NCBI GenBank assembly: GCA_011321725.1
Contig: DROX01000205.1
Span: 1 to 32,896, forward strand
Reading direction: 5' to 3'
Length of the DNA stretch: 32,896 nucleotides
Source of the DNA: Nitrospirota bacterium
GTDB lineage: Bacteria; Nitrospirota; Thermodesulfovibrionia; Thermodesulfovibrionales; JdFR-85
Positions 10,394 through 30,296 of the stretch are shown here, in pieces. The position numbers and the translations under genes were made by a program. The notes beneath the pieces are model-generated. The model was given only the letters and a program-made list of their open reading frames with translations, made no database searches and was not told the DNA's origin. Each line of letters opens with the position of its first letter. Position 1 is the stretch's first letter.

Positions 10394-11083
10394 TTATCTC
10401 TTGGAGGGCATGAACCTGTATCCCACACCAGGGATGGTAATGATATATTTTGGGTTGGAGGGATCCTTTTCTATCTTTGAACGGAGGTGCTGGATATGAA
10501 CATCAATGACCCTTGACCAGGAGTACAGCTTCTTGTTGTCCTTCCAGAGGGAGTTTCTTATAAAATCACGGGTGAGCACCTTTTCCCTGTGGTTGATGAA
10601 GAGGCACAACAACTCAAACTCCTTGGGTGTGAGGTCAACCCTTTTTCCCCTCACCCGCACCATTCTCTTTGGTACGTCCACCACAATCTCGCCTGCACGC
10701 AGCCTCTCCAGGGACTCCAGGGATGTACGTCTCAAACACGCCTTTATCCTTGCCACAAGTTCAATCGCCTCAAAGGGCTTCACCACATAATCATCAGCAC
10801 CGCTCTCAAGGCCCAACACCCTGTCAGAGATGCCGTCACGGGCTGTGAGCATAATCACGGGTATACTGATATGCCTTTTCCTGAGTTCACGACACAAATC
10901 CATACCGTCACCATCAGGCAGCATGAGATCAAGAACGATAAGATCAGGGATCCTTTTATTGATGAACTGCCATGTTTCAGCACAATTTGTAGCAGTGGCC
11001 ACTTCAAAACCTGCTATCTCAAGGTTTGCCTTCAGCACCTTCAGTATGTCTGGGTCATCATCAACCACCAGAATCAAAGCCAT
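10394..11083 (-). CDS. OmpR/PhoB-family response regulator
   Basis: Receiver domain (VVDDDPD, LDLMLPDGDG, VVKPFE) plus winged-helix output (RVIDVHIQHLRSKIE...GVGYRF). Confidence 0.93.
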   Translation of the reverse strand: MALILVVDDDPDILKVLKANLEIAGFEVATATNCAETWQFINKRIPDLIVLDLMLPDGDGMDLCRELRKRHISIPVIMLTARDGISDRVLGLESGADDYVVKPFEAIELVARIKACLRRTSLESLERLRAGEIVVDVPKRMVRVRGKRVDLTPKEFELLCLFINHREKVLTRDFIRNSLWKDNKKLYSWSRVIDVHIQHLRSKIEKDPSNPKYIITIPGVGYRFMPSKR

Positions 11084-12740
11084 CAGCCCCTCCCTTGTAA
11101 AAGGGTAGTTTGAAATAGAATGTGCTCCCCCTTTTACCGTTACTGATTACACCGATCTCACCCTCATGGGCCCTTATGATGGCCTTGGAGATTGCAAGGC
11201 CAAGCCCTGTACCCCCCTTCCTCTCCTTGTAGAACCTGTCAAATACCCTCTGTTGCTTGTCATATGCTATCCCTGGACCGTTGTCAGTCACGGACAGGAC
11301 CACCCAGTTGCCTGTACGGTAGGCCTCCAGCATGATCATGTCACCTTCCGGAGAGAACTGTATTGCATTCGTGACAAAATTCAGGATTACCTGGCGTATT
11401 CTGTCCTCATCAGCCCATACGGAGAGACCATCCTCTATCTCCGTCTTCAGGGAGAGCCTCTTGTCATCCAGAAGAGGCATCACCTCAAGGGTCAGGCTCT
11501 TGAGGATACGGTCCAGATACAGATGTTCAAAACTGAATTCCATCTTACCATTTTCTATCTTTTCAAGGTCAAGTGTTTCATTGACCATCCTGTTGAGCCT
11601 CTCGGCATTTGATGAAATGATATCCATGAATGAGAGGATCTCATCTATATCACACATCTTCGGGCAGGTCTCATGTAATGATAACAGTTTCTGCTGGATA
11701 TAGCTTATTGAACCCTTGATAGAGGTCAGGGGGGTTCGGAGTTCATGGGAAATGGAGGATATAAAGTCGGACTTCCTTGCACTTAGCTCCCTGTATTCCT
11801 GGTTCACCTTGAGAAGTTTCTCATTGGCCTTTCTCAGGCCCTCCGTGGCATTCCTCACCTCCTCCTCAAGGGAGTCATGATATCTTCTTATTGTGTCCAT
11901 CATCTCTGTGAATGTACTATACAGTGATTTCAGCTCCTCTGCATCAGGTTCCACCAGTTCTATCTCACCACCCCTCCTGTATCCCTCCATTGTCTTCTGC
12001 AACCTCTTAATGGGTCTGACAACAAGCTTGTTCATGGAGAGATAAAGGAAAACGAGCAGACTCAGGGAAATGGACAATGCACCTGCTGCCAGGGTCCACC
12101 TGTTCTTTGAGAGGTTCTGAAGGATAGGGTTAATGGGAATGGAAACACTGATGGCACCCCTTACACTTCCGACCCTGTAATCACTGTGACATTCCAGGCA
12201 TGACGCCTCCACATACAGTGGCGCAATGTAACGGTAGATACTGATACCATTGCTCCTCTCAATGGTGGACAGCTCCTTCAGCCCCTCATTTTCAAATCTT
12301 ACCAGGGCACTTCTCTCAAACTCGTCAGGTTTGTTTGAGGGATTTACAAGCCTGAGGCTTGTTATGTGGAACCAGTAAAGCCCCTCCCTCTTTGAATACT
12401 CTGAGAGCTGCCTTGTGACATATGCAGGATTCTCTTTTACATACCGCCTGCCGGTTATATCAACAATCTCCGGTTTTTTCAGATAGGGATTACTTGTGAC
12501 CCAGGGCAGTTTCTCTACGAATATACCACCATGGTCAGCGATCCATCTCCGCGTAAGCACAATCTGTTTGAAGAGTATCTTGGCCTGGGATTCCACCTGC
12601 TTGAAGACAAGCCCTTCATGGGCCTTTTCCACAACATAAAAGGTTATGCTGAAGGTTATCAGAAGGGCTATGGAGGATGATAGGAGTATGCGTGCACTCA
12701 GGCTGTTGAGTATCCTGCCCCTGGAGAGAGTCTTTTTCAT
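11061..12740 (-). CDS. Sensor histidine kinase with periplasmic heme-c (Tll0287/DUF3365-like) sensor
   Basis: Two TM segments, CLECH in periplasmic domain, HAMP, SHELRTPL H-box, ATPase motifs; overlaps the RR gene. Confidence 0.9.
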   Translation of the reverse strand: MKKTLSRGRILNSLSARILLSSSIALLITFSITFYVVEKAHEGLVFKQVESQAKILFKQIVLTRRWIADHGGIFVEKLPWVTSNPYLKKPEIVDITGRRYVKENPAYVTRQLSEYSKREGLYWFHITSLRLVNPSNKPDEFERSALVRFENEGLKELSTIERSNGISIYRYIAPLYVEASCLECHSDYRVGSVRGAISVSIPINPILQNLSKNRWTLAAGALSISLSLLVFLYLSMNKLVVRPIKRLQKTMEGYRRGGEIELVEPDAEELKSLYSTFTEMMDTIRRYHDSLEEEVRNATEGLRKANEKLLKVNQEYRELSARKSDFISSISHELRTPLTSIKGSISYIQQKLLSLHETCPKMCDIDEILSFMDIISSNAERLNRMVNETLDLEKIENGKMEFSFEHLYLDRILKSLTLEVMPLLDDKRLSLKTEIEDGLSVWADEDRIRQVILNFVTNAIQFSPEGDMIMLEAYRTGNWVVLSVTDNGPGIAYDKQQRVFDRFYKERKGGTGLGLAISKAIIRAHEGEIGVISNGKRGSTFYFKLPFYKGGADGFDSGG

Positions 12741-15680: not shown

Positions 15681-15865
15681 GCTTACCTCCATTGTTTTGG
15701 TCTTTTTATTTTTACAAACAACAAGATTCCCTTTCACCCTGAAATAGCGATTTACTTTAAACATTATAGGTTCATATGTATTGCCTGCTTCTGGGCTTGA
15801 CCTTTTTCTATCAGCAAGCTTGGGCCTACATGGGATTTATGGATTTTTCACAATTTCTCCTTAAA

Positions 15866-15897
15866 ATAGTATTAAAAAAATATGAACAAATTATGAA
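15866..15897 (-). promoter_or_regulatory. 11-bp-phased repeat promoter, copC/copD
   Basis: Minus strand: TTCATAATTTG TTCATATTTTTTTAA TACTAT; last unit start to -10 start = 15 nt. Confidence 0.65.
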
Positions 15898-16007
15898 GAC
15901 CCCATACTGCCCTGTCTACCCCCTCACACCTGCCCCGTGAAGTAAAAGTGTTATAGCAGGTCAGAAGTAGTTTTTAAAATCGGTGAACTCTGCTGGCCTG
16001 TAACTCC

Positions 16008-19139: not shown

Positions 19140-19193
19140 TTCATATATTCTTCATAATCCCTTCAAAGTTTCTTCGCAATCTACTGTTAGACT
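19140..19193 (+). promoter_or_regulatory. 11-bp-phased repeat promoter, CCAHH protein/ccm cluster
   Basis: TTCATATATTC TTCATAATCCC TTCAAAGTTTC TTCGCAATC... TAGACT; last unit to -10 = 15 nt; TGN extended -10. Confidence 0.7.
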
Positions 19194-19230
19194 GAAGTCA
19201 GATCAGAGCAATGGCACAAAGGAGTGTACC

Positions 19231-19824
19231 ATGCAAGAGGGCACAGCAATCTATAGTCTTAAAAGACCCTACATATGGGGAGTCACATCCGGAGCTGTTC
19301 TATTTCTGGTCTACTCGGTCATCCTCACCGTATCAAACTCCCTGAAACATGCCGTAGAAGAGCTTCTACTCTACTGGTATTGGATCTTTCCCCTCATAGG
19401 GGGCTTCGGACTTCAGGCCGGCCTGTACTCCTACATCAAGGCCTCACTGAAGGCAAAGAGGACAAGCGGTGTTGCCTCTGCATCAGTTGTAACGGCAGGG
19501 GGTGTTTCAACAACCTCAATGGTAGCCTGTTGTGCACACCATGTAACAGACCTGCTCCCCCTCGTGGGTCTTTCCGCGGCGGTTGTATTTCTGAATAAGT
19601 TCCAGAGTATTTTCTTCCTCATCGGGATCGTCTCAAATACAGTAGGTGTGATACTGATGTTGAAAATAATACAGCAACACGGCCTCTACAGCCAGCAAGG
19701 ACGGATATTACCTCTTCTCATGAAGATACAGATGAAGAAGGCCCTGTATGTTAGTATCCTGGCAGGCACACTGATAATTATTGTCACTTTGTACAAAAAA
19801 ATTTCCCTTTATGGAGGTGTATGA
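19231..19824 (+). CDS. Polytopic membrane protein with CCAHH motif, putative metal handling
   Basis: About 5-6 hydrophobic segments; STTSMVACCAHHVTDLLPLVGLSAA resembles layout of MerT-type Cys-Cys helix. Confidence 0.6.
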   Translation: MQEGTAIYSLKRPYIWGVTSGAVLFLVYSVILTVSNSLKHAVEELLLYWYWIFPLIGGFGLQAGLYSYIKASLKAKRTSGVASASVVTAGGVSTTSMVACCAHHVTDLLPLVGLSAAVVFLNKFQSIFFLIGIVSNTVGVILMLKIIQQHGLYSQQGRILPLLMKIQMKKALYVSILAGTLIIIVTLYKKISLYGGV

Positions 19825-20288: not shown

Positions 20289-20301
20289 AGGAGATACCTT
20301 C

Positions 20302-20333
20302 TTCACATTTTCTTCATATTTTATATTTATAAT
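20302..20333 (+). promoter_or_regulatory. 11-bp-phased repeat promoter, ccmH
   Basis: TTCACATTTTC TTCATATTTTATATT TATAAT; last unit to -10 = 15 nt. Confidence 0.6.
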
Positions 20334-20347
20334 ATAATTTGTTTGAG

Positions 20348-27737: not shown

Positions 27738-28964
27738 TCAGGAGATGATGCAATTCCTGTAAGCAGGGTTTTTAATCCTTTGGTACTCACCTCTTTTCAT
27801 ACAAAGAACGTCCTTGATAAGATTCTTTATCTCTACACTGAATCCAGCATACTGCACTATCTCAAGAAAAAGCCCTGTTGAGAGTTTTCTGAGCCTGTGA
27901 TACTGACTTTCTGATATCTCCTTAACATCTGCCCTAACCATATTCACCACATCCTCTATAACCGCTGCCGTTTCATCACCGTAAACCCTTTGGGCAAAAT
28001 ATACTACATCCGTCTTTGTGAGAGGCATATATCCATGGACTGGAAGGGTTATGTAAAGCATCTTTATGATTACATTAAGCAACCTCTCAGCAGGCCCATG
28101 TCCCAGACATACTCCCCTTTGAGCGCATGCACCAGAGAAAGAATGAGCCCTTCTTATATCCCTGCTTAGGTCCTTTAGAGAGCCATAATACTGGGTAAGG
28201 ATTCCGTTATAGAGTGCTCTGATAATGTATCTCCTTGTTGGCAATCCTGCCTTACAGGAGGACTCTATCCTTTCAAGAAAACCATCAGAGTACAGTCTAA
28301 GTCCGTACCTCAATGAATAGGAGAAAGGTGAAGAATCACGGAACTCGTCTCTGACAAGCTTTTCGTTGAGAACCGTAAACTCCATCTTAATGTTGTTACC
28401 ACGGTCTTCAAACTGCTCATCTATCTCTTTCTGGAAGACAACCTCACGGACCGTGTTATACCCCTTCTTCTTGCATATCAGGACAACATCCCTGTCAGAG
28501 TTCCTGGATGCCTTCCCGTAGACACTACTACCTACAAGCACAATGGCATGCAAAAGACTACGGTAGGGTCTCAGGAAGGAAAGCTCTTTTTCCATCTCTT
28601 CAACCCTATCCTTGCCCGCAAGGGAGTGGGACCTTACCACGGGGAGTGAAACATCTCCGGTCCTCCTGTCATAGAGAAACTCCCCGATCCATCTGGTTAT
28701 TAACCTGCCACCATAGGCAAGAAACAGGGCGTAAAGGATCCCAAACAGTATACTACCAAATATTACAACCTGCTCAAGAAGACATGGTTCATCATGATTA
28801 TAGGTTAAACCTGTCAGGAGCTGTGTTGCACCATAACCTCCTGTAAACAAACCAAGGGGAAGTCCTGCAATGAAAAATACAAAGGGAAGGGACCACTCAA
28901 CAAGCCTTCTCCTGTAGCTGCCGTTGTAAGTTCCTGTTGCCTCCTTTGCTATCAACTTATCCAT
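27738..28964 (-). CDS. Membrane-anchored nucleotidyltransferase-domain protein
   Basis: Two N-terminal TM segments, then VLVGSSVYGKASRNSDRDVVLI and a helical C-terminal region. Confidence 0.7.
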   Translation of the reverse strand: MDKLIAKEATGTYNGSYRRRLVEWSLPFVFFIAGLPLGLFTGGYGATQLLTGLTYNHDEPCLLEQVVIFGSILFGILYALFLAYGGRLITRWIGEFLYDRRTGDVSLPVVRSHSLAGKDRVEEMEKELSFLRPYRSLLHAIVLVGSSVYGKASRNSDRDVVLICKKKGYNTVREVVFQKEIDEQFEDRGNNIKMEFTVLNEKLVRDEFRDSSPFSYSLRYGLRLYSDGFLERIESSCKAGLPTRRYIIRALYNGILTQYYGSLKDLSRDIRRAHSFSGACAQRGVCLGHGPAERLLNVIIKMLYITLPVHGYMPLTKTDVVYFAQRVYGDETAAVIEDVVNMVRADVKEISESQYHRLRKLSTGLFLEIVQYAGFSVEIKNLIKDVLCMKRGEYQRIKNPAYRNCIIS

Positions 28965-28970
28965 GTCTTG

Positions 28971-29027
28971 ATAGTATTATTTTTTTGTGAAGATAAGATG
29001 AAGATATTCTGAAGATTTTGTGAAGAT
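28971..29027 (-). promoter_or_regulatory. 11-bp-phased repeat promoter, membrane nucleotidyltransferase
   Basis: Plus strand TGAAGAT at 28988, 28999, 29010, 29021; minus -10 TACTAT starts 15 nt after the last TTCA. Confidence 0.7.
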
Positions 29028-29032
29028 AGGAC

Positions 29033-29086
29033 TTCATAATTTATTCACAATTCCTTCATATTCCCTTCGTATTTATGTGATATCAT
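29033..29086 (+). promoter_or_regulatory. 11-bp-phased repeat promoter, SHOCT/Met-rich genes
   Basis: TTCATA 29033, TTCACA 29044, TTCATA 29055, TTCGTA 29066, TATCAT at 29081; last unit to -10 = 15 nt. Confidence 0.7.
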
Positions 29087-29113
29087 TAAGACAATGAAAG
29101 GAGGTGTAATGTG

Positions 29114-29347
29114 ATGCACGGAGCAGGATTCGGAATGGGAGGTTTTGGCTTTGGCTGGATATTCATGATACTTTTCTGGGTTCTGGTAATAGCAGCTGTC
29201 TTCTATACCGTGAGGTACCTTATTGATCGTGGAAGAACTGTTACGGTTGAAAAAGACAGGGCAGAGGATATCCTCCGGAGGCGATTTGCCAGTGGTGAGA
29301 TTGACAAAAAGGAGTACGAAGAAAAAATGAGGCTGATTGGAAGCTGA
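29114..29347 (+). CDS. SHOCT-domain small membrane protein
   Basis: One TM, then AEDILRRRFASGEIDKKEYEEKMRLI; AAAGGAGGT RBS. Confidence 0.85.
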   Translation: MHGAGFGMGGFGFGWIFMILFWVLVIAAVFYTVRYLIDRGRTVTVEKDRAEDILRRRFASGEIDKKEYEEKMRLIGS

Positions 29348-29468: not shown

Positions 29469-29531
29469 ATGAAGATCAAAAAGGTGACAAAAAAGAGTTC
29501 TTCGGCATGCAAGTGTCATAGCTCGTGCTGA
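29469..29531 (+). CDS. 20-aa Cys/His microprotein MKIKKVTKKSSSACKCHSSC, copy 1
   Basis: RBS AAAGGAGGTGAAGCC; identical 63-nt ORF at 31276. Confidence 0.6.
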   Translation: MKIKKVTKKSSSACKCHSSC

Positions 29532-29583: not shown

Positions 29584-29621
29584 AATGAAGAAACCTGATA
29601 TATCAAAGGAGGAAATTGATT

Positions 29622-30296
29622 ATGAAGCGAATGTTCTTGACACTGATTGTCATTCTCGGACTGATGACAGGCACCGCCTTTGCCCAGATGGGCGGTGGGA
29701 TGATGGGCGGACAGGCAATGATGGGAACAGATCAACAGCAGGCACAGCCGATGCCATACCAGACCTATCCAGGCATGGGATATGGCTATGGAATGGGACC
29801 TGGTATAATGATGGGTCCTGGCATGGGATATGGCATGATGGGTCCAGGCTATGGAATGGGACCGGGCATGATGGGCTACGGTGGTCCTGGAATGGGTATG
29901 ATGGGCGGCATGGGTCGTGGAATGATGATGGGACCTGGCATGATGGGAATGATGCACAATATGATGATGGGTAGAGGCATGATGGGTGGTTATGGTATGG
30001 GACCAATGATGGGCGGACCAGGTATGATGGGAATGGGCCCCATGATGATGGGTCCTGGTATGGGATATGGTATGATGGGCTATGGCTACTCAAAGGCCTA
30101 TCAGAAGTTCCTTGACGAGACAAAGGAACTGAGAAAGCAGCTTAATGAAAAGAGGTTTGACTATTTTGAGGCACTCAGGGATCCCAAAACAAAGCCTGAG
30201 ACCATCTCAAAACTCCGCAGGGAGCTGTATGAACTGAAGAAAAAAATATATGAAAAATCTCCCCTCAAGAACTTTGGTTATTTTGGTTGTTATTAA
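29622..30296 (+). CDS. Secreted Met/Gly-rich protein with C-terminal ZraP/Spy-like helical region
   Basis: Signal peptide MKRMFLTLIVILGLMTGTAFA, repeated MMGPGMGYG, then FLDETKELRKQLNEKRFDYFEAL; RBS AAAGGAGG. Confidence 0.8.
   Translation: MKRMFLTLIVILGLMTGTAFAQMGGGMMGGQAMMGTDQQQAQPMPYQTYPGMGYGYGMGPGIMMGPGMGYGMMGPGYGMGPGMMGYGGPGMGMMGGMGRGMMMGPGMMGMMHNMMMGRGMMGGYGMGPMMGGPGMMGMGPMMMGPGMGYGMMGYGYSKAYQKFLDETKELRKQLNEKRFDYFEALRDPKTKPETISKLRRELYELKKKIYEKSPLKNFGYFGCY

Follow-up and report, generated by a model that had tools for sequence, protein, structure and literature searches.

What is the purpose of the repeats in the short stretch of intergenic DNA that separates a gene for a membrane-anchored nucleotidyltransferase (NTase) from a gene for a small SHOCT-type protein in this Nitrospirota genome? 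In the window (the whole stretch of DNA that was analysed, 32,896 nt), two four-unit arrays with 11-bp phasing lie head to head at this place, each with its own -10 box; the original prediction had described just such an arrangement, and the unit coordinates bear it out. The left operator (28988..29024, minus strand, directed towards the NTase gene) has its TTCA units at 28988-28991, 28999-29002, 29010-29013 and 29021-29024; read on the plus strand it is TGAAGAT four times over, reaching 29027. Its -10 box, TACTAT (28971..28976, minus strand), is offset by 15 nt from the fourth unit, and the predicted transcription start at 28964 coincides with the A of the NTase ATG. The right operator (29033..29069, plus strand, directed towards the SHOCT gene) has units starting at 29033, 29044, 29055 and 29066, and its -10 box, TATCAT (29081..29086, plus strand), has the identical 15-nt offset, and the predicted start is at 29093. 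The right-hand units had been described as four TTCATA-like repeats: this holds for units 1 to 3, which are TTCA, but not for the fourth, which is TTCG (a variant also found at 19173 and in copies from related genomes). The gap between the innermost units of the two arrays is only 8 bp, and the interval 28971-29086 runs exactly from the outer edge of one -10 box to that of the other. A consensus scan for ordinary -35/-10 promoters gave none at either of the two sites; the window contains no Rfam matches.

The arrangement is far from private to this locus. Exact four-unit TTCA arrays occur in 51 copies distributed over 30 of 61 related genomes. Among 50 distinct copies, the first base of a TAnnnT -10 hexamer lies 15 nt beyond that of the fourth unit, with at least 48 copies agreeing at every fixed position of the hexamer, and a CA consensus, which is probably the transcription start, follows at offsets 59/60, 7 nt past the -10 box. 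The position of the -10 box and this start consensus together put the units at about -60, -49, -38 and -27. No -35 box stands apart from the repeats; its place is taken by the two units closest to the -10 (at -38 and -27). A sequence model trained on other copies of the promoter (R1) finds sites in 44 of the 61 genomes, and in none of the four that belong to family f9, in which matches to the candidate regulator discussed below are absent or weak. The four repeats would be the docking site of a stress-response activator, and the recurrence of this switch with identical spacing across a whole order of uncultured Nitrospirota means that the site belongs to a real regulon, one that appears to be previously undescribed but is of a familiar type.

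The explanation that best accounts for the whole (we assign it a probability of about 0.78) is that the site comprises back-to-back σ70-type promoters, devoid of a -35 box, which an OmpR-family response regulator switches on. Each promoter would present its four 11-bp half-sites, from the positions just given, to head-to-tail regulator dimers, one on units 1 and 2 and another on units 3 and 4; the proximal dimer, lying over the -35 region, would recruit RNA polymerase to the -10 box at a fixed distance. Both sides taken together would accommodate four dimers, and would fire jointly upon activity of the sensor kinase. The sequence itself establishes the operators with their geometry and conservation, and the predicted regulon; that the response regulator encoded on contig C12 and its adjacent kinase read the site, and that the regulator does so as an activator, we infer.

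Could the repeat be no more than AT-rich intergenic DNA that looks periodic by accident? The GC content of the region (~25-27%) invites the question, but the likelihood is negligible: the pattern read in reverse has no copy in any of the 61 genomes, the -10 offset is fixed, and shuffled sequence falls short of four exact units and of 5 bits. Specifically, TTCA recurs at exact 11-bp spacing up to 4 times in a row in the window, against 1-3 times in 200 order-2 Markov windows. With a matrix made from other genera only, the top-ranked positions of the window are 29031(+), 28965(-) and 19138(+), at 52 bits for the right array, 49 for the left and 48 for a further four-unit site described below, while shuffled windows reach a maximum of 4.5 bits; under R1 the left array (28963-29026, minus strand) matches at 41.8 bits, and the right array, which is absent from the training set, still reaches 35.9 bits. 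The reversed-pattern control, the shuffles and the fixed offset thus rule out chance periodicity. A different proposition is that the eight units build a single cooperative complex linking the two promoters, for instance through mutual dependence or repression of one side, instead of serving as two independent activator sites. The 8-bp gap between the arrays and the existence of further back-to-back operator pairs (in genome G002, with 4+2 units, and in G004, G005 and G008) are to its credit. We nevertheless think it unlikely, since most arrays are solitary and have the identical geometry, so that one array suffices, and since the two sides stand apart in G004 and G012. (In G002, L110 415-520, and G004, L114 2072-2186, the back-to-back operators have a gene for a Met-rich protein on one side and a ccdA-like gene on the other.)

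If independent activator sites are the preferred reading, which regulator fills them? Four OmpR-type regulators are found in the genome, and from presence, absence and linkage we infer that the BaeR/CreB-like protein of contig C12 is the best candidate among them. The C12 type (72-90% identity within family f1) is present in every f1 genome that is at least 90% complete and has arrays, whereas every one of the other three is absent from several array-bearing genomes. Exact boxes (2 units plus -10) occur at 11 of 30 C12-type loci and at none of 45 control loci, which are the loci of the other three regulators (Fisher p = 1e-5); other unit spacings gave at most 3 in the same test. Model hits tell a similar story: 14 of 119 are no more than 3.5 kb away from a C12-type regulator, against 0.4 expected, and 17 fall in the 30 C12 loci, with 3, all weak, at loci of the other three regulators. 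(All C255-type loci entered the exact-box and model-hit tests; nine went unscored in another, their start motif not having been found.) That the operators are instead read by one of those three, i.e., the window's own regulator (10394-11083, with a Tll0287-type kinase), the CzcR/CopR-like C255 or the PhoB-like C170, is accordingly quite improbable: all are OmpR-family proteins, able in principle to bind 11-bp direct repeats, C255 comes nearest to the subfamily of heavy-metal regulators, and the gene for the window's own regulator is close at hand, but presence/absence and linkage disfavour every one of them.

The case for the C12 type is not free of complications. Boxes lie directly upstream of the regulator gene in G004, G006, G008 and G011 and divergent from it in G035, and others lie between the kinase gene and a gene for a small secreted protein with an invariant TPYGD motif; in contrast to these linked loci in relatives, the C12 locus of the present genome is without an adjacent box. 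G021 has arrays without a C12-type match below 1e-60, and G002 (75% complete) has arrays and a distant C12-type match only; conversely, several genomes of families f2, f3, f5, f12 and f13 possess the regulator without a strong array. A second C12-like paralogue group is also found near arrays, and the motif may therefore be read by more than one regulator. The best PDB match of the C12 regulator is BaeR, and its scores fall below every relevant equivalog cut-off: 229.5 bits for BaeR (cut-off 380), 219 bits for CreB (cut-off 273) and 179.9 bits for TIGR01387, the CopR/CzcR/SilR model (cut-off 279.2). C255, which has no link to arrays, is also below the last of these cut-offs, at 266.3 bits. Since no NCBIfam equivalog cut-off is reached, the C12 protein is to be called BaeR/CreB-like, not BaeR or CreB, and the signal cannot be read from a regulator name; the adjacent kinase matches HAMP/HisKA/HATPase models only. 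The signal would be metal or redox stress in the periplasm, with copper the likeliest.

Two side observations belong here. The window's own two-component pair (10394-12740, minus strand), with its Tll0287-type sensor domain, is a separate system that lies beside a molybdopterin oxidoreductase cluster and is unlinked to the operator. The small secreted proteins, with the fuller invariant pattern TPYGD.C...YG, form an order-wide family repeatedly found beside the regulator-kinase pair and under the operator (L206, L207, L208, L209, L210, L211, L215, L120, L110, L108 and L198); none of the scanned members has a Pfam match over cut-off.

The promoter layout of OmpR-family activators is known from PhoB and PhoP promoters. 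The pho box of PhoB and the operators of Bacillus PhoP are tandem 11-bp direct repeats that are bound head to tail and replace the -35 box, and PhoP sites can hold four repeats. The sites described here share tandem half-sites with an 11-bp period (one helical turn), half-sites that overlie the -35 region with constant spacing to the -10, and, in relatives though not at this genome's own C12 locus, a linked OmpR-family regulator gene. The half-site sequence and the regulon are unlike those of PhoB and PhoP, and the genome's PhoB-like regulator, C170, has no link to the motif by presence/absence or by boxes at its locus. The cre/blr-tag recognised by CreB of E. coli and BlrA of Aeromonas, TTCACnnnnnnTTCAC (PMC3660660), resembles the repeat: it is likewise an 11-bp direct repeat, with nearly the same half-site (TTCA, then C or T) and a regulator of the same family. 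The present motif is relaxed relative to it (position 5 of the half-site is C or T, with C in 32 of 50 copies at unit 1), has four half-sites instead of two and a fixed -10 offset, and serves a predicted periplasmic metal/redox regulon, not carbon metabolism or β-lactamase. In the BaeSR envelope-stress system, BaeR controls spy in E. coli (PMC7657598) and BaeS binds copper directly (PMC4780735). Likenesses to that system are that BaeR is the best solved structure for the C12 regulator, that a kinase gene is adjacent, and that the predicted targets include Met-rich proteins with a weak, below-cut-off match to Metal_resist; a difference is that neither mdtABC nor acrD was seen beside the sites examined.

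The fixed promoter geometry makes it possible to predict the regulon from sequence. The model scan of this genome, a 302-contig draft for which all functional statements are predictions, yields ~12-15 promoters. A third four-unit operator with promoter (19140..19200, plus strand; R1 36.9 bits) lies in the window upstream of the gene at 19231 and the cytochrome c maturation region. Shorter copies, each with two clear units and a -10 box, precede a ccmH-like gene at 20339 (PF03918; site at 20294..20338, plus strand, 22.4 bits) and copC-copD (PF04234, PF05425; site at 15865..15899, minus strand, -10 TACTAT, 18.5 bits). The predicted targets are Met-rich proteins (one of them followed by a kinase, on C27), CcdA, a cytochrome c/Rieske pair, a multihaem cytochrome protein, a second SHOCT protein, an RseC-like protein, copC-copD, the operon at 19231 that leads to the ccm genes, the NTase and the SHOCT operon; a further, weaker site is close to an NrfD-type membrane protein. 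Their common theme, as predicted, is that of periplasmic metal and redox proteins. Metal_resist is the family that contains Spy/ZraP-like proteins; the matches of the Met-rich target family to it (E=8e-6, 26.5 bits against a cut-off of 29.2, and E=0.0033) are both below cut-off.

Activation through direct repeats by OmpR-family proteins is of a known kind, and the regulon itself appears to be undescribed: the literature searched has no description of the operator in Nitrospirota, an absence that counts as weak evidence. It is reasonably likely that we are dealing with an order-wide, previously undescribed Nitrospirota regulon in which a BaeR/CreB-like two-component system reads rigid four-repeat promoters without a -35 box. 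Brought together under it would be cytochrome c maturation, copper/Met-rich periplasmic proteins, the family of small secreted proteins and the membrane-anchored NTase, whose message would be leaderless. What began as one odd repeat between two genes has become a regulon for which a regulator can be proposed, in an order that is known mostly through environmental genomes, and an uncharacterised membrane nucleotidyltransferase and a small secreted family are now placed in a testable context of metal/redox stress.

Are the NTase and SHOCT genes, then, partners in a special sense? The proposal had been that one regulator could drive both and thereby tie the enzyme, a putative signalling one, to the metal-binding module. 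The two sides have the same operator and promoter geometry and belong to a predicted multi-promoter regulon, so that one activator very probably does drive both; a special tie between just these two finds no support, theirs being two of the ~12-15 predicted regulon promoters. Conservation in relatives, which had been suggested as a check, is partial. The four-unit array is kept at NTase orthologues in G004, G005 and G012, making four genera in all (a paralogous NTase group, to which the C284 copy of the present genome belongs, is without it); the divergent NTase/SHOCT pairing is kept in G005 only, and there the NTase array faces a promoter with two clear units, with SHOCT as the second gene. 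G008 has a SHOCT and Met-rich operon under the same operator with a different divergent partner, and G004 and G012 do not keep the two sides together. The G005 and G008 arrangements imply that the exact pairing is not strongly conserved and that regulon membership of each side is. Under the two-unit promoter in G005 lies a gene (L035 1475-2344) of GRDB type (glycine reductase selenoprotein B), whose codon 172 is an in-frame TGA in the context TPG-U-GIC; its product is probably a selenoprotein.

On the right, the SHOCT-type small membrane protein (29111..29347, plus strand; PF09851 below the curated cut-off, with homologues in relatives) starts at GTG 29111 or ATG 29114, after GGAGG, and is followed by the Met-rich secreted protein (29616..30296, plus strand), whose family in relatives weakly matches Metal_resist (PF13801). 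Between them (29469-29531, plus strand), also with GGAGG ahead, is a possible 20-aa peptide, MKIKKVTKKSSSACKCHSSC, whose three Cys and one His suggest a metal-binding mini-peptide.

On the left, the NTase (408 aa; 27738..28964, minus strand) is identified by PF01909, alignment, a structure model and a fold search; it has two predicted N-terminal membrane helices and a GS...D.D catalytic motif. The AlphaFold model (mean pLDDT 75.9) consists of two long N-terminal helices, read here as the membrane helices, a nucleotidyltransferase domain and a helical C-terminal part. Its best structural neighbours are aminoglycoside nucleotidyltransferases, HalB of the Hailong system and MNT antitoxins, with low TM-scores, and a sequence search for solved relatives gave nothing significant; the fold is predicted to be that of a nucleotidyltransferase anchored in the membrane and similar to MNT proteins and aminoglycoside nucleotidyltransferases. 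Three of the four orthologues have their ATG exactly on the predicted +1 (offset 60), which makes a leaderless NTase message likely; in G005 the ATG lies downstream of the predicted +1, after a Shine-Dalgarno sequence. Other operator promoters, in G053 (L118 114-178) and G031 (L064), also have an ATG on the predicted +1, there opening a signal-peptide-like frame and hinting at more leaderless messages.
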